Notes under the pieces: generated by a model
Seen by the model: the letters and a program-made list of their open reading frames with translations, nothing else
Databases searched by the model: none
What the model was told of the DNA's origin: nothing
Translations under genes and position numbers: made by a program
Assembly (NCBI GenBank): GCA_018434945.1
Contig: JAHDOI010000025.1
Location: 1 to 64,000, forward strand
DNA length: 64,000 nt
Reading direction: 5' to 3'
Source: Selenomonadales bacterium
GTDB lineage: Bacteria > Bacillota > Negativicutes > Sporomusales > UBA7701
In this document: positions 4,656 through 31,686 of the stretch, one piece after another
Layout: each line of letters opens with the position of its first letter
Numbering within the stretch: position 1 is the stretch's first letter

Positions 4656-6086
4656 ATGAGAACAAGCGACTTGTGGCGATGGTTCATAGTGCTTATCTTC
4701 GCGGCCAGCCTGGCGGCCTTGGGCTGGTACGTGTTTCTGGCCGATTCGGGGACGCGGCGCACGGCGGGGCGGGAAGCGGGCGGCGGGTCTTACCGCCAGG
4801 TCGCCCAGCTCCCCCTTGGGCAGGTAGAAGTGAAAAACTATCAGCGGATGGGTTTCACTCGCGGCATCCTGCGTTTTTCGCCCGACAGCGGCCGGCTGGC
4901 CGTGGGGACGGAAAATGGCCAGGTGATCATGCTGTCCCGGGAGGGCGAGGTGCTGTGGCGTCGGCCGGCCGGCGTGGGCAAGATAACGGCGCTGGAGTTC
5001 TCCCCCGGCGGCGACCGCCTGTACGTGGGCGAAACCAGCGCCGACGGCAGCCTGTACTGCTTTGACGCCGCCAGCGGGCGCGAGCGGTGGAAAAACAATG
5101 TGGCCGCCGGACTGGGCGTCGACCTCAGACGCAAGAGCCACCCCGGCGTCATACGGCTGCTCGTCGACCGAGCCGGCCGCGTCTTCGCCCTGGGACAGCG
5201 CTACGACCGCACCGCCGCCGGTGAGAGCGTTTACCGCGGCCAGATATTCTGCCTTAGCCCGGAGGGTGCGGAACTGTGGCGCTTTCCCGCCGCCGGAGCC
5301 ATGGACGCCTGGGTAAACTGGATGGGCGCCGACGAGCTGGGGCGGCGGATCGTCTTCGGCACCGCCAACTTCGATACCGACAGGCGCTATCGCTACGACA
5401 AGAACATCTACTGCCTCGATGCCGTCAGCGGCGCTGAGGCGTGGAGCGCAAGCATCGACCCGGCGCCGCCTTTCCAGCGGACCATCCTGCGGGGCAGCCC
5501 CAATATCGCCGCCGACGGCGAATACGTAGCCGCGATGGCCAGCGACGGTCGGGCCTTTTTTTTCGACGCCCGGGGGCGGGAGCTTTGGCGCCGTCACCTC
5601 AGCGCGCCGAAAAAGCTCGACGAAATCTATCTGAACGCCGTCGGCCGGGATGCGTACGTGCTCGGCGGGTTCGCCGTCTTCACCACAATTAATACCTACA
5701 ACAATGCCAACTGGCAACTGCCCACGCCGGTTGAGCACCCCGCCAGCAACAGCCTGTTCGTTTTCGACACTGCCGGGAAGTTCGTCGCCAGGTGGCGGGC
5801 CGGCGGCGGCATCGAGGAGATAGCGTTTGCGAGCCCCCGGCAGATTGCGGTCGCGGTCGGCCGCAACACCAAGACCAAGGACCCTGGCGTCCACGGGATA
5901 TATGTGCTCGATTTGCCGGACGCAGCGGCGGCGGAAAAACTGGCGACTGCGGGTCCGTGCGCGGCAGTCGCCGTAAGCCCGGACGAACGGCTGGTGGCAG
6001 GCGTAGAGGCGCCGCTGCAGCTCGACGATGGGACGATCATCGGCGGTTACCGGCTATGGCTGTGGAAAAAGACGGGCTCCCGGTAA
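4656..6086 (+). CDS. Membrane-anchored beta-propeller (PQQ/WD40-like) protein
   Basis: 476 aa. The start is the ATG preceded by GAGGGGTGG; the longer in-frame ORF would run into ecfT. Residues about 8-28 form one membrane anchor, and the rest is predicted to face the outside. The body has repeated propeller blades with lines such as GTENGQVIMLSREGEVLW, LYCFDAASGRERW and IYCLDAVSGAEAW, typical of PQQ-like/WD40 folds that end blades on a Trp. It sits 10 bp after ecfT, so it is probably co-transcribed. It may be a scaffold or sensor for the uptake complex between the membranes (inference). No enzyme active site is seen. Confidence 0.75.
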   Translation: MRTSDLWRWFIVLIFAASLAALGWYVFLADSGTRRTAGREAGGGSYRQVAQLPLGQVEVKNYQRMGFTRGILRFSPDSGRLAVGTENGQVIMLSREGEVLWRRPAGVGKITALEFSPGGDRLYVGETSADGSLYCFDAASGRERWKNNVAAGLGVDLRRKSHPGVIRLLVDRAGRVFALGQRYDRTAAGESVYRGQIFCLSPEGAELWRFPAAGAMDAWVNWMGADELGRRIVFGTANFDTDRRYRYDKNIYCLDAVSGAEAWSASIDPAPPFQRTILRGSPNIAADGEYVAAMASDGRAFFFDARGRELWRRHLSAPKKLDEIYLNAVGRDAYVLGGFAVFTTINTYNNANWQLPTPVEHPASNSLFVFDTAGKFVARWRAGGGIEEIAFASPRQIAVAVGRNTKTKDPGVHGIYVLDLPDAAAAEKLATAGPCAAVAVSPDERLVAGVEAPLQLDDGTIIGGYRLWLWKKTGSR

Positions 6087-13744: not shown

Positions 13745-13802
13745 CAGTGACGCCGGCATAAAATACAATTTTAAGGGAATAAACAATTGCATATAATGGG
13801 AA

Positions 13803-14052
13803 AGGTGCCTTACGGCTTAATAGGGAAGCTTGGTGCAATGCCAACACGGTCCCGCCGCTGTAATGGGGAGCAAGCCTGCATGATTCGCCACTGGGACGGC
13901 TATCCGTCCTGGGAAGGCGCAGGCGCGCGATGATCCTGAGTCAGAAGAACTGCCTTTCCGACAATCACCGCTTTAACCCACGAGCGATGGGGAGGGGATT
14001 TTGACGGCTAACAGGCAAAATCTCTACTTCCCGCGGGGGTAGGGATTTTTTT
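13803..14052 (+). promoter_or_regulatory. Cobalamin riboswitch with terminator upstream of cbiM
   Basis: Typical cobalamin-element blocks are present in order. GGTGCC (13804) and AATAGGGAAGC come first, then GCAATGCCAACACGGTCCCG and CCGCTGTAA, then the B12-box region GCCACTGGG with GGGAAGGCGCAGGCG, and finally TGAGTCAGAAGAACTGCC. A terminator hairpin (AATCTCTAC / GTAGGGATT, about 14019-14046) with a T-run follows 21 bp before the cbiM start. Known members switch genes off at high coenzyme B12, so cobalt import should fall when B12 is plentiful. Confidence 0.93.
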
Positions 14053-15916: not shown

Positions 15917-16762
15917 ATGACTACTACGCCCCTTATTGCCGCCGATAATTTGACCTTCCGCTACCGTCCGGGCAACCTGGCTCTGGACGGCGCGACGCTT
16001 GCGATCCCGGCCGGTACGAGGGTGGCGCTGGTTGGTCCGAACGGCGCCGGCAAGTCGACTCTTTTCCTCCATATCAACGCCATCCTGCGGCCGCTTGCCG
16101 GCCAGCTGAGCTATATGGGGCGACCTTACCGCTACAGCGGGGAGTTCCTGGCCGCCCTGCGCCAGAAGGTCGGGCTTGTTTTCCAGGACCCCGATACCCA
16201 GCTGTTCGCCGGCAACGTGCTCGATGATGTGATCTTCGGGCCGATGAATATGGGCCTGACGGCGGGGGAAGCGGTGCGGCGGGCCGAGGCCGCCCTCGAG
16301 GCGGTCGGCATGCTGGATCAGCGGACGGCACCTGTCCATTTCCTCAGCCAGGGGCAGAAGAAGCGGGTCGCGATCGCCGGGGTGCTGGCGATGGACCCGG
16401 AGGCGCTGGTGATGGACGAGCCGACCGCCGGCCTCGATTACCCCGGGCTGACGAGCCTGAAGGAGACGCTGACAATGCTGCACACGGCCGGCAAGACGCT
16501 GCTGGTCGCCACCCACGATATCGACTGGGCGTGGGGCTGGGCCGATCTGGTCTTCGTGCTCGCCGGCGGACGGACGATAGCCGCCGGCGCTCCGGCCGAC
16601 ATCCTGGCCCGCGCCGACCATGCGGAATTGGGGTTCGCCCGCCCTGTTCTCGCCGAGGTCGCCGCCGCTCTTGGCGAGCGGAGCATCCTCCCCGCCGGCG
16701 CCGTCCCCCGCACCGCCGGAGAGCTGGCCGCTCTCCTCGCCGGGCGGAAGGGCGGTCAATAG
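15917..16762 (+). CDS. cbiO: Cobalt ECF transporter ATPase CbiO
   Basis: 281 aa single ABC domain: Walker A GPNGAGKST (about 40-48), Q-loop region VFQDPDTQLFAG, signature LSQGQKKRVAIAG and Walker B ALVMDEPTAGLD. The start is the ATG with GCGGAGGAG upstream; the frame extends into cbiQ but without a site. It powers the CbiMNQ importer and is the last gene of the operon. Confidence 0.95.
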   Translation: MTTTPLIAADNLTFRYRPGNLALDGATLAIPAGTRVALVGPNGAGKSTLFLHINAILRPLAGQLSYMGRPYRYSGEFLAALRQKVGLVFQDPDTQLFAGNVLDDVIFGPMNMGLTAGEAVRRAEAALEAVGMLDQRTAPVHFLSQGQKKRVAIAGVLAMDPEALVMDEPTAGLDYPGLTSLKETLTMLHTAGKTLLVATHDIDWAWGWADLVFVLAGGRTIAAGAPADILARADHAELGFARPVLAEVAAALGERSILPAGAVPRTAGELAALLAGRKGGQ

Positions 16763-27315: not shown

Positions 27316-27485
27316 GGCGTTCCTCCCTGGCAACATTAAGTTAAGTTTACCGCACCGCCGTCCGCCTGGCAATCCCTTCCGCCGTCAGGAAAGGGACGCC
27401 GCGGAGCCGCGGGTTATTTTTCCGCCGCGCCGGAAGCACCTTCCGGCCGGGACGGCATATTATACAATGAAACAGCATACCGCCC

Positions 27486-27586
27486 GTAAAGGGGAGTAGC
27501 TAACGGAGAAACACCGTGAGTGGAATCGACACACTGGCTTCGGCCCGGTTCCACTGGCAGCGCCACTGCTATAGCGAGACCTTTAT
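27486..27586 (+). promoter_or_regulatory. yybP-ykoY manganese riboswitch, orphan, facing the 3' end of mntH
   Basis: The aptamer blocks AAAGGGGAGTAGC (27488) and GACACACTGGC (27528) and the closing AGCGAGACCTTTA (27573) match the yybP-ykoY class. They match the second copy at about 29944-30034 almost block by block. P1 pairs TAAAGG with CCTTTA. A TATTATACAAT promoter-like stretch lies at 27458-27468. No plus-strand gene follows; transcription would run antisense into mntH. Confidence 0.9.
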
Positions 27587-27623
27587 TTCCGCCTGCGGGG
27601 GGAAATAAAGGTCTCTTGCAATT
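27576..27623 (+). terminator. Expression-platform terminator of the orphan Mn riboswitch
   Basis: Hairpin GAGACCTTTATTTCC / GGAAATAAAGGTCTC with a GC-rich loop, then TTGCAATTTT. Its 5' arm contains the 3' half of aptamer stem P1, so folding of the aptamer and of the terminator exclude each other, as in the usual Mn-ON arrangement. 27624-27713 holds further hairpins near the mntH stop but no gene. Confidence 0.88.
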
Positions 27624-27713
27624 TTCTCCTCTGGAAAAGCAGCCTTTTTTTCTCCAGCCGATATAGACGCAGGGTCCGCCGGATGAGCGGCGAACCCTGC
27701 TGGCTCCGGGCCG

Positions 27714-28991
27714 TTATGCCTGCCCGGTGAGGAGGAGGTAGAGGAGCGCGCCGTTGAGGGCGACGATGAGGCTGACGATGACCCAGCCGGCAAAGGTGGT
27801 GAGGCGGCTGTTGGCGAACTCGCCCATGATGTCGCGCCGGGCGGTGATGAGCATGAGGGGGATGACGGCCGCCGGCAGGGCGAAGCTTAGGGCGACCTGA
27901 CTGAGGACGAGGGCGATGATGGGGTTTACGCCCATGAGGATGATGATGAACCCGGGCAGCATGGTGATGAGGCGGCGGATGTTGATGGGGATGTCGAGGC
28001 CGACGAAGCCCCCGAGGATGACCTGCCCCGCCATTGTGCCGACGGTAGCCGAGGAAAGGCCGGAGGCGAGCAGGGCGGCACCGAAGGCGGCGGCGGCGAA
28101 TTCGCCCATCAGCGGCCCGAGGGTCTGATAGGCGCCTTCGATGCTGTCGATCTCGTAGCCATTGGCGTTGAAGACGGCCGCCGAGACGATCACCATCGCG
28201 GCGTTGACTACAAAGGCCATGTTCATGGCGATGAAGACGTCAATTTTGGCCATCTTGAGGTGGTGGCGGCAGTCGGGGAGGTCACAGTTCCGCCGGGGCT
28301 GCACGAGGTAGGAATGAAGGTAGATGACATGGGGCATGACGGTGGCGCCGAGCATGCCGACGGCGACGAGGACGCTGTCGGGGGTGAGCATGGGGACGGC
28401 GAGGTGGTAGCCGGCTTCACGCCAGTCGGGTCTGGCGATGAAGAGTTCCCAGATGTAGGCGATGCTGATGACCGCGACCATGGCGGTGATGACTTTTTCG
28501 ACCGTCCGGTGGCCGTATTTCTCCAGGTGACAGATGATGTAGGTGACGACGACGGTGAGGACCGCGGCCCAGCCGAGCGGTATCTTGAGCAACAGGTGAA
28601 ACCCGAGCACGCCGCCGAGGAATTCGGCGAGGTCGGTGGCCATGGCTGCCACCGTGGCTACCGACCAGAGTCCCCAGTTGACCGGGCGGCTGAACACCCG
28701 GCCGCAGTGGTCGGGGAGGTTGCCGCCGGTGGCGATGCCGAGTTTGGCGGACAGAATCTGGATGAATATGGCCATGATGTTGCTCCAGAGGATGACCCAG
28801 AGCAGGTTGTAGCCGAAGTGGGAACCGCCGCTGATGTTGGTGCCGAAGTTGCCGGGGTCCATGTAGGCGACGCTGACCACGAAGGCGGGGCCGAGGTATT
28901 TCATCAGGCCTTTGGCTTTGGCCCTGATCTTTTCGCCGTCGAGTCCGGGCAAATCGAGCGGCAATCCTGCCGCGACTTCTTCCTCCTTCAA
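27714..28991 (-). CDS. mntH: Nramp-family manganese/divalent metal importer MntH
   Basis: 425 aa from a TTG with AAAGGGGTGG upstream; a GTG three codons earlier (29000) is the alternative. Eleven or so membrane helices. The Nramp metal-site motifs DPGN (in YMDPGNFGTN) and MPH (in GATVMPHVIYLHS) are intact. It imports Mn2+ (or Fe2+) with H+. Its own upstream region has no riboswitch. Instead a Mn riboswitch on the other strand points into its 3' end, and a Mn exporter gene with the same switch lies upstream. Confidence 0.94.
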   Translation of the reverse strand: MKEEEVAAGLPLDLPGLDGEKIRAKAKGLMKYLGPAFVVSVAYMDPGNFGTNISGGSHFGYNLLWVILWSNIMAIFIQILSAKLGIATGGNLPDHCGRVFSRPVNWGLWSVATVAAMATDLAEFLGGVLGFHLLLKIPLGWAAVLTVVVTYIICHLEKYGHRTVEKVITAMVAVISIAYIWELFIARPDWREAGYHLAVPMLTPDSVLVAVGMLGATVMPHVIYLHSYLVQPRRNCDLPDCRHHLKMAKIDVFIAMNMAFVVNAAMVIVSAAVFNANGYEIDSIEGAYQTLGPLMGEFAAAAFGAALLASGLSSATVGTMAGQVILGGFVGLDIPINIRRLITMLPGFIIILMGVNPIIALVLSQVALSFALPAAVIPLMLITARRDIMGEFANSRLTTFAGWVIVSLIVALNGALLYLLLTGQA

Positions 28992-29082
28992 TAGAACCAC
29001 CCCTTTGCTGCGTGTTTTCCAATCACCTCACAAAAAAAAAGACGGCACTGCGCAAAAGAATAGGCGTAGCTATTGTAAAATA

Positions 29083-29136
29083 TGACGGGCGGCGGCGAAT
29101 GGTACTTAGTCCACCAGCGGCCGCCGTTTTTTTGCC
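29083..29136 (+). terminator. Plus-strand terminator-like hairpin upstream of mntH
   Basis: ACGGGCGGCGGC and GCGGCCGCCGT pair (with a bulge), followed by seven T's in the plus direction. No plus-strand gene ends here. The T-run is on the plus strand only, so it would end an antisense transcript that crossed mntH. Confidence 0.6.
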
Positions 29137-29184: not shown

Positions 29185-29868
29185 TTATTTCTTGGTCGCG
29201 GCGGCCGTTTTCTCGGCGGCGGCGCCGCCTCCTCCCCAGCGGGAGACGAGGTACATGGCGGCGGCCAGCGATATCCCGGTGGCGGTGATGACGGGGGCGG
29301 TGAGGATGCTGGCCGGCAGGGCCTCGTACAGGCCGGCGAGGCCGAAGGCGATGAAGATGAGGGCGGCGACCCATTTGACGGTGCGCTCGGGGATTTTTTT
29401 GCCCATGACGATGCCGAAGATGATGCCGATGCCGTCGGCGATGAGCATGCCGGTGGTCGTGCCGAGCCACACCGGGACGATGCTGCCGTACTGGGCGGCG
29501 AGGGCGACGGTGGCGAGCTGGGTTTTGTCGCCCATTTCGGCGAAGAAGAAGGCGACGGCGACCGTCCAGAAAGGACTGCGGCCAGTTTTCTTGTCTTCGC
29601 CGTCGAGCGAGTCGCCGCGGATGGTCCAGAGGCCGAAGATGACGAACGAGGCGGCGGCGGCGATCTGGATGTAGCTGAGGGGAACGATGCTGGTGAGGTA
29701 ACTGCCGACGATGACGGCGAACAGGTGGTTGAGGATGGTGGCGGCGAATACGCCCCACATCACGGTGCGCCAGGGGTACCGGGCGGCGAAGGCCATTGCG
29801 AGGAGCTGGGTTTTGTCGCCCATCTCGGCGAGAACGACGAAGAGCATCGAGGCGATGTAGGCTGTCAC
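29185..29868 (-). CDS. TMEM165/GDT1 (UPF0016) family manganese exporter
   Basis: 227 aa from a GTG (VTAYIA) that has GAGGAGG 8 bp upstream; a GTG two codons earlier is too close to that site. Six or seven membrane helices. The two family signatures are present in both halves: VLAEMGDKTQLLAMAFAARY and FFAEMGDKTQLATVALAAQY. Members export Mn2+ and are commonly controlled by yybP-ykoY riboswitches, as here. It opposes MntH, so the two together set cell Mn. Confidence 0.92.
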   Translation of the reverse strand: MTAYIASMLFVVLAEMGDKTQLLAMAFAARYPWRTVMWGVFAATILNHLFAVIVGSYLTSIVPLSYIQIAAAASFVIFGLWTIRGDSLDGEDKKTGRSPFWTVAVAFFFAEMGDKTQLATVALAAQYGSIVPVWLGTTTGMLIADGIGIIFGIVMGKKIPERTVKWVAALIFIAFGLAGLYEALPASILTAPVITATGISLAAAMYLVSRWGGGGAAAEKTAAATKK

Positions 29869-29895
29869 AGGCACGTCCTCCTCGGGTGGTTGATT

Positions 29896-29951
29896 AACAA
29901 AAAACAAGACCTTTAGTCTGGCCGCGACGAAACGGCCACACTAAAGGTCTC
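29896..29951 (-). terminator. Expression-platform terminator of the exporter's Mn riboswitch
   Basis: Minus strand: AGACCTTTAGT / ACTAAAGGTCT with an inner GGCCG/CGGCC stem, then TTGTTTTTTGTT. Its 5' arm overlaps the P1 3' half of the aptamer, giving the Mn-ON logic. Confidence 0.9.
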
Positions 29952-30034
29952 GCTTATCGGCTGGGCCGACGGCAGAGCCAGGCGTCGCCGCCAGTGTGTT
30001 GACTCTGCCTCGCAAGCTACTCCCCTTCAGGGCG
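29944..30034 (-). promoter_or_regulatory. yybP-ykoY manganese riboswitch of the exporter gene
   Basis: Read on the minus strand: CTGAAGGGGAGTAGC, GTCAACACACTGGC, and AGCGAGACCTTTAG. These are the conserved loops and P1 of the yybP-ykoY class. It lies 75-165 bp upstream of the exporter start. Mn2+ binding should free the exporter gene from termination. Confidence 0.94.
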
Positions 30035-30065
30035 CAATAATGCTTGTCTTTTGTACTGTACCTAC

Positions 30066-30210: not shown

Positions 30211-31686
30211 ATGAGGCGTCAGTTGGACGAGGTTGTATTGCGGATAGCGAATAAGGCCGATTATCTGCCACTGGCGCTGGACAATACGACGGCCATCGCC
30301 CGGATGCTGGGGTTCGGCGCCGAGGCGACGGGGAAGATCAGGCTGGGGGTGGAGGAGGCGCTGACGTATGTCGTCAGGTACGGCTATCTCCCCGGGGAGC
30401 TTGCGTGGTTCGATGTCGTGTATGAGACGGTGCCGCTCGGCCTGCAGATAACGATCAGGGAAAAAGGGGTGCCGCTCGACGAGCAGAAGGTGGCGGAGGA
30501 GCCGGCAAGCGGGCCCGACTGGCTGCTTGACGGGCCGGGCCTTGGCCTGCGGGTGCTGAAAAACAGCGTTGACGGTGTGTCGTTCCGCAACCTGGGGAAA
30601 AGCGGCCAGGAGATCCGCCTGGTAAAGTATTTTCCGGAGGCGCCCGAGGCCGGCGGCGACGAGGAGCCGGCGGCCGAGCCATCACGCCCCGTCGCCGCGG
30701 TCGATTACACCGTCCGCCCGATGGCCCCCGGGGAAGCGGTGGAGGTGGCGAAGTGCGCCTATAGTTCGTACGGTTATTCTTACGGTAACGAGCATATATA
30801 TTACCCCGAACGGATAAGGGAGCTCAACAGGACGGGCAAACTGCTGTCTTATGTGGCGGTGACGACCGGCGGAGAGCCGGAGATCATCGGCCATGCCGCG
30901 CTGGAGATGGGCGACGAGCGCCACGGGGTGGAGATGGGGATGGCGTTCGTGAAGCCGGCCTTCCGTGGCAACGGCTGCCTGCTGAAGATCAGCGAGGCGC
31001 TGATCGAGGCGGCCCGGGCGGCGGGTACGGACAGCCTTTTCATCACGGCGGTCACGACGCATCCGATGTCGCAGAAGCCGGCCCGCAGGATGGGGTTCAC
31101 CGAGACGGCGCTGCTGGTGTCGCGCGTGACGCTGGAGTCGATGCGGGGGATCAGGGAAGACTGCATTCAGCGGGAAAGCCTGCTGGTTTTCACCCGTTAT
31201 CTTAAGGGCGGGCCTGGCGATGCCGCGCTTTACCCGCCGCCCCGCCACCGCGAGATGATCGCGCGGATTTACGGATACAGCGGGGCGGCGAGGACGCTGG
31301 CCGCGGCGGGGAAAGGCGGCGCGCGCGGCCAGGCGGTGGTGGAGGCGTCGACCGACAGTTTTCAGGCCGCGCATATCTATGTGCACCGCTACGGGGCGGA
31401 CGTGCGGGAGAAGGTGGCGGAGGCGCTGCGGACGCTGTGCATCAACAGGGTGGAGACGGTTTATTTATATCTGAGCCTCACCGACCCGGAGACGGCCCGG
31501 CAGACGGCCAGGTTCGAGGAGAGCGGCTTTTTCTTTGCCGGGATTTTCCCGGGGCGGGGCGGCCTGGACTGGCTGGTGCTGCAGTATCTTAACAATCAGC
31601 GCATCGATTACGGCCAGTTATGCATTGCGTCGGAGGCCGGCCGGGAGATCGCGGAGTATGTGAGGGCGTGCGACCCCAACAAATGA
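30211..31686 (+). CDS. RsbW-like anti-sigma ATPase domain fused to a GNAT acetyltransferase domain
   Basis: 491 aa. Residues about 10-135 are a histidine-kinase-like ATPase of the RsbW/SpoIIAB type: KIRLGVEEALTYVVRYGY for the N-box and DGPGLGLRVLKNSVDG for the G-box. From about 165 a GNAT-like domain follows (PMAPGEAVEVAKCAYSSYGY, EMGMAFVKPAFRGNG with the acetyl-CoA R/Q-x-x-G-type loop), then a third, weaker domain. The start is the ATG after GGGGAGGTGG. RsbW-like proteins bind and inhibit sigma factors or act as phosphorelay parts; what the fusion senses or acetylates is unknown. Confidence 0.8.
   Translation: MRRQLDEVVLRIANKADYLPLALDNTTAIARMLGFGAEATGKIRLGVEEALTYVVRYGYLPGELAWFDVVYETVPLGLQITIREKGVPLDEQKVAEEPASGPDWLLDGPGLGLRVLKNSVDGVSFRNLGKSGQEIRLVKYFPEAPEAGGDEEPAAEPSRPVAAVDYTVRPMAPGEAVEVAKCAYSSYGYSYGNEHIYYPERIRELNRTGKLLSYVAVTTGGEPEIIGHAALEMGDERHGVEMGMAFVKPAFRGNGCLLKISEALIEAARAAGTDSLFITAVTTHPMSQKPARRMGFTETALLVSRVTLESMRGIREDCIQRESLLVFTRYLKGGPGDAALYPPPRHREMIARIYGYSGAARTLAAAGKGGARGQAVVEASTDSFQAAHIYVHRYGADVREKVAEALRTLCINRVETVYLYLSLTDPETARQTARFEESGFFFAGIFPGRGGLDWLVLQYLNNQRIDYGQLCIASEAGREIAEYVRACDPNK

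Follow-up and report, generated by a model that had tools for sequence, protein, structure and literature searches.

Up to 2023, only two antisense-acting riboswitches had been described, both of which use ligand-dependent termination (PMC9943018). In Clostridium acetobutylicum, a SAM riboswitch lies antisense to ubiG-mccB-mccA, faces the 3' end of its target, carries its own terminator and represses by antisense read-through. In Listeria monocytogenes, a B12 riboswitch is convergent with pocR at the 3' end of that gene. Polymerase collision, duplex formation or supercoiling have been described for these two elements, and the rule used to recognise an antisense riboswitch allows it a distance of up to 500 nt from the target 3' end (PMC9943018). 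The nearest precedent for the element described here is a yybP-ykoY riboswitch of Carboxydocella thermautotrophica 019, predicted in 2023 to act in antisense on the Mn2+ transporter gene cthm-CFE_2050 (PMC9943018). The same source counts 5 antisense against 1,907 sense cases of yybP-ykoY, with antisense placement not enriched, and this speaks against the antisense model developed below. In a literature search that covered subscription journals thinly, no further paper on a Mn2+ riboswitch antisense to an importer was recognised.

The window, a 64,000-nt stretch of a single contig, carries a yybP-ykoY (Mn2+) aptamer at 27487–27585 (+). The corresponding cmscan match to RF00080 spans 27479–27645 (+), covers the full model and scores 39.3 bits (E 2e-8). 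Invariant or nearly invariant alignment columns contain the conserved loops, namely GGGGAGUAG and the region CGACA..CUGG. By its sequence, the element belongs to the yybP-ykoY (Mn2+) riboswitch family, and Mn2+ binding is predicted. Its score is lower than the curated RF00080 gathering score of 45 bits, as is that of a second copy at the nearby exporter gene (33.6 bits), and neither the window nor any of 13 loci gave a Mn2+ riboswitch in an Rfam scan at the gathering threshold. All antisense aptamers picked up by Rfam score below this threshold; annotation at that cut-off therefore misses them, and surveys may underestimate the size of the class.

The aptamer is joined to an expression platform. 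The 5' strand of its P1 helix, TAAAGG (27487–27492), pairs with CCTTTA (27580–27585), and this 3' strand falls inside the first arm (27576–27590) of a 15-bp terminator hairpin at 27576–27615 (+), whose second arm is 27601–27615. P1 and the terminator are therefore mutually exclusive. Together, aptamer and terminator span 27487–27615 (+), and the plus-strand RNA fold of the region beats 200 of 200 shuffles (z −5.08). Judged by sequence and covariation, the element has the ligand-controlled terminator/antiterminator of an antisense-acting riboswitch. The first-pass annotation had claimed a plus-strand yybP-ykoY aptamer with its own terminator, and both the RF00080 match and the overlap of the terminator with the switch helix bear this out. 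Two features of the window sequence count against the antisense model. The terminator is followed by a weak U-tract, TTGCAATTTTCT (27616–27627 (+); tail TTGCAATTTTC), with fuller U-tracts found in other lineages. Upstream, a −10-like TATTAT at 27458 (+) marks a candidate −10 region of the riboswitch promoter (TATTATACAAT, 27458–27468 (+)), a consensus −35 is absent, and a promoter scan found no plus-strand site near 27458 that meets its rule. A promoter-like site of the form GTGTCA-18 nt-TANNAT precedes the aptamer in 6 of 19 mntH loci with a convergent switch (RS+; loci without it are termed RS−); among these 19 loci, the window has the −10-like part without the GTGTCA part, and other lineages have no clear promoter site.

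The proposed target is mntH, a gene for an Nramp-type Mn2+ importer (PF01566, NF001923) at 27714–29000 (−), with either GTG at 29000 or TTG at 28991 as its start codon. The terminator stem ends 98 nt from the mntH stop codon, and the riboswitch is transcribed towards mntH, a placement that is conserved. In position and direction, the element is thus as the 500-nt rule describes an antisense-acting riboswitch. Between the two lies a hairpin past the mntH stop (27669–27700 (−)), a candidate terminator of mntH, and in many relatives the counterpart of this hairpin runs into a T-rich stretch on the mntH strand. The window riboswitch has no co-directional gene directly downstream and is not a sense leader in that respect. 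The absence of a plus-strand gene up to 30.2 kb, also asserted from the first inspection of the sequence, holds: seven plus-strand ORFs of at least 50 aa start between the terminator and 30.17 kb, none has a Pfam match at E 0.1 and none is convincing.

An end point for an antisense RNA is less firmly placed. A terminator-like hairpin with a T7 run had been claimed at 29083–29136 as the plus-strand end. The hairpin itself (29086–29133 (+), T7 at 29127–29133) is real and strong, at about −21 kcal/mol; as an end point it is only partly conserved, with the T-run kept in three of the four genus genomes that have the locus and lost in the fourth (L037/L009). Where the divergent gene beyond mntH is known, antisense-strand terminators beyond mntH occur in 3 of 5 RS+ and 7 of 45 RS− loci, a weak test. 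An earlier version of this comparison gave 6/18 against 9/97, with naive gene calling that took a shadow ORF in the window for a gene and made neighbour calls unreliable. The poor conservation of the end point counts against the antisense model.

On balance, the riboswitch just past the mntH stop codon probably works as a Mn2+-turned-on antisense switch that represses the importer at high Mn2+. A promoter near 27460 would start a plus-strand RNA. At low Mn2+, the terminator would capture the 3' strand of P1, with which it overlaps in sequence, and transcription would end near 27620. At high Mn2+, the aptamer would hold P1, the terminator would not form and transcription would continue across mntH in antisense. 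Polymerase collision, an mRNA-antisense duplex or both may then lower mntH expression. The direction of the switch is modelled on the Mn2+ riboswitch of Lactococcus lactis, where Mn2+ stabilises P1.1, the 3' segment of which otherwise joins a terminator (PMC11087558); the same overlap at mntH suggests that Mn2+ allows read-through. The two elements share the P1 switch helix and the alternative use of its 3' segment and differ in that the L. lactis riboswitch precedes a downstream gene in sense (PMC11087558). A review of Clostridioides difficile riboswitches calls Mn2+ riboswitches OFF switches (PMC11477304), a label that does not fit the overlap seen at the mntH switch and that counts against the model.

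Compared with the earlier antisense systems, the mntH switch shares with the SAM riboswitch its own terminator, its orientation towards the 3' end of the target and, as proposed, repression by antisense read-through, and with the B12 riboswitch its convergent placement at the target 3' end. Both earlier elements are terminated by their ligands (PMC9943018). At ubiG-mccB-mccA the target is on with ligand, whereas at mntH the ligand would release the antisense RNA and the target would be off; the target of the B12 element is a transcription factor gene and not a transporter of the ligand. Release by the ligand would be fitting for an importer, since import should cease at high Mn2+. The C. thermautotrophica prediction has the same aptamer class, the same position, where a Mn2+ transporter gene ends, the same antisense orientation and the same proposed logic; it differs in that it concerns one genome and comes without covariation, and the account given of it does not mention MntR (PMC9943018).

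The neighbouring gene at 29185–29868 (−, start codon inferred) encodes a GDT1-family divalent cation/proton antiporter (PF01169), which is likely a Mn2+ exporter. It is headed by a sense yybP-ykoY riboswitch at 29893–30039 (−), matched by RF00080 at 30031–29875 (−) with 33.6 bits (E 9.6e-7) and by the covariance model R1 described below with 74.8 bits. A matching riboswitch for the exporter, 2.4 kb away, had been proposed in the first-pass annotation, and the sense copy agrees with it. By turning on the exporter through this copy, Mn2+ would control import and export oppositely.

The convergent arrangement is not confined to the window. When 60 related genomes were searched with the mntH protein and the loci compared by motif and alignment, the element proved to be convergent with mntH in many relatives, and R1 was built from 16 convergent sites. 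Among the 28 genomes of the order, 11 contain mntH loci of 70–100% identity, 12 loci in total, and every one of these has a convergent R1 match with scores of 151.8–170.5 bits, the next match scoring 77.6; in one of them mntH is truncated (G010) and in another it is a fragment at a contig end (G012). The 14 distant Nramp paralogues (32–38% identity) have no convergent switch within the locus fetched, and neither do loci L014 and L040, the mntH genes of which are 71–72% identical. Among 80 named mntH loci (of 578), eight are RS+ (L037, L038, L039 from a Pelosinus MAG, L041–L044 and L095), six of which lie on contigs of genomes already counted, such that the sets overlap. Of 398 genomes sampled from the phylum, 121 contain an R1 match and 61 an mntH-like gene at E ≤ 1e-50; among the matches listed, and with adjacency judged by eye, switch and mntH are adjacent and convergent in at least five genomes of four families: G000, G203 (74% identity), G063 and G109 (52%, one genus) and G227 (40%). 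The last four took no part in R1 training, and three of the four families were unseen when the model was built; their scores are 132 (G203), 83.8 (G063), 83.8 (G109) and 56.2 bits (G227). The Nramp stop codon of G227 is separated from the terminator stem by about 9 nt.

The first-pass annotation had suggested looking for yybP-ykoY elements convergent with mntH in related genomes, and these exist in several lineages, including all 12 close orthologues in the order. It had also named a Mn-responsive sense gene directly downstream in relatives as evidence to the contrary; such a gene was looked for and is absent from the 19 RS+ loci read, none of which has any gene between terminator and mntH. 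No ORF opposite mntH is kept in place across the 17 loci examined, and the riboswitch-strand genes beyond mntH vary: G007 has mntR there, three loci encode a small membrane protein and L044 has a different gene. One case counts against the antisense model: in G010 (L221, 4181–4720), mntH is cut to about its first third and the adjoining antisense riboswitch is intact. L223, L013 and L043 encode a similar small membrane protein of ~70 aa divergently from mntH, on the riboswitch strand beyond the mntH start.

Conservation and covariation point to selection on the switch itself. In the 16 sequences, aptamer pairs are intact in 95.2% of alignment cells and 11 pairs are changed on both sides, against at most 3 when partners are slid; terminator pairs are intact in 99.2% of cells with 3 doubly changed pairs, against at most 1 when slid, all of these covariation counts being inflated by the relatedness of the sequences. 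Within the genus, riboswitch identity is 91–98% and spacer identity 60–77%; at four loci outside the genus, the respective ranges are 73–85% and 43–49%. On these grounds, the possibility of a chance match or a degenerate remnant was rejected. A hidden sense gene was likewise rejected, as no riboswitch-strand ORF is positionally kept and the seven ORFs of the window lack Pfam matches.

Other roles for the conserved element have to be weighed against antisense read-through. The short terminated RNA of about 130 nt could itself be the functional product, pairing with the 3' end of the mntH mRNA or acting in trans as a Mn2+-dependent small RNA, with read-through incidental. The terminators of G227 and G063/G109 come to within about 9 to 30 nt of the mntH stop codon, where an mntH 3' UTR could overlap them, and the Bordetella pertussis sRNA BprK turned out to be a terminated yybP-ykoY leader (PMC8546581). 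However, a conserved switchable terminator/P1 platform is relevant only if read-through matters, and at many loci mntH has a separate terminator of its own ahead of the riboswitch, which makes a short-RNA function unlikely. The same separate terminators, together with the lack of a T-run after the window stem on the mntH strand, led to the rejection of a shared bidirectional terminator as the main role. They also bear on the idea that the hairpin is kept mainly as a 3'-end terminator or stabiliser of the mntH mRNA, with its likeness to an aptamer secondary. The RS+ loci read do have a long symmetric hairpin in the mntH 3' region; the missing T-run and an aptamer core that is nearly invariant on the riboswitch strand leave this explanation with the least credence of those considered.

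The element could alternatively be a leader, stranded or very long, that belongs to a plus-strand gene on the far side of mntH and does nothing to mntH itself. In favour of this, Mn2+ riboswitches usually precede a sense gene, and G007 has mntR past mntH on the strand of the riboswitch. Yet the genes beyond mntH vary among loci, the window has none that starts before about 30.2 kb, terminator-like hairpins intervene in some loci, and the conservation of the element speaks against a stranded remnant; a leader of this kind is very improbable. The antisense switch remains the preferred reading.

MntR is the usual manganese repressor protein, and the antisense switch tends to occur where mntR is absent, a pattern limited by relatedness. 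The neighbourhood of mntH includes an mntR-like gene at 1 of 17 RS+ loci and at 66 of 99 RS− loci (Fisher p 2e-6, relatedness ignored). The 17 omit L019 and L221 (partial mntH), L220 (a near-duplicate of L219) and second copies of contigs. The 99 include duplicates: 92 remain without identical mntH, and 79, with 16 RS+, when 1 kb is required on both sides, for which the counts are 1/16 against 52/79 (p 1e-5, relatedness again ignored). In an mntH tree of 122 rows, 14 of the 17 RS+ rows fall in one 16-row set with support 100, and L219, L217 and L095 sit on long branches; the RS label needs five changes on the tree, at least three of which are forced by supported branches. The two RS− members of the 16-row set are L040 and L014, in which an mntR-like gene is convergent about 16 or 61 nt past mntH, at the place of the riboswitch. 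In Thermincola (L068, L191), outside the riboswitch clade, an mntR-like gene is convergent 33 nt past mntH.

Genome-wide within the order, a DtxR/MntR-family gene (PF02742) is present in 3 of 11 RS+ genomes (G002, G007, G023) and 13 of 17 RS− genomes (p 0.019), two of the four RS− genomes without it being 58% and 65% complete. Outside the order, a PF02742-type gene is absent from G038, G063, G109 and G227 and present in G046 and G203. Since 5 of 17 RS+ genomes overall have a DtxR/MntR-family gene, switch and MntR are able to coexist. Of five pairs in an independent-pairs test of switch against mntR, two are supported, a number too small to reach 0.05; the pairs that differ in mntR do so in the expected direction. 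With two supported pairs, the exchange is a pattern and not a tested correlation. Tentatively, an ON-type Mn2+ riboswitch against mntH may have taken over the job of MntR in several Bacillota lineages, more than once and even at mntR's place. If so, an RNA sensor and a protein repressor would have been exchanged at one locus, with the same ligand and the same target.

No DtxR/MntR-family gene was found in the genome of the window; it encodes four Fur-family proteins, which could also control mntH and count against the antisense model. In L044, L043 and L041, an operator-like near-palindrome around AAAGTAGCTACTTT lies upstream of mntH near its likely promoter, with a weaker counterpart in the window at about 29065–29080; the palindrome near the promoters of these relatives likewise counts against the model.

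An antisense yybP-ykoY riboswitch at one Mn2+ transporter gene is thus already known as a prediction in one genome (PMC9943018). What is added here is the conserved clade, the finding that the arrangement recurs in other lineages, aptamer scores that fall below the threshold, and an apparent exchange of the switch with mntR. If the model is right, the locus uses a mirror logic, in which an ON riboswitch renders its target ligand-repressed and one aptamer class controls importer and exporter oppositely. The distribution suggests that a metal-dependent repressor protein can be replaced in its role by RNA.

Several other elements were observed alongside. In one genome of the set, two R1 matches stand in tandem, 15 nt apart (G005:C11:16064–16207 and 16222–16365 (+)). 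In G007 (L224), a cobalamin riboswitch at 4807–4986 (−) is back to back with the antisense Mn2+ riboswitch at 5111–5269 (+). The sole riboswitch listed in the window at the gathering threshold is a cobalamin riboswitch at 13786–13971 (+), with 110.7 bits. The plus-strand gene at 30211–31686 encodes a protein in which an ATPase domain resembling that of anti-sigma factors (HATPase_c_2) is fused to regions that match GNAT acetyltransferases.
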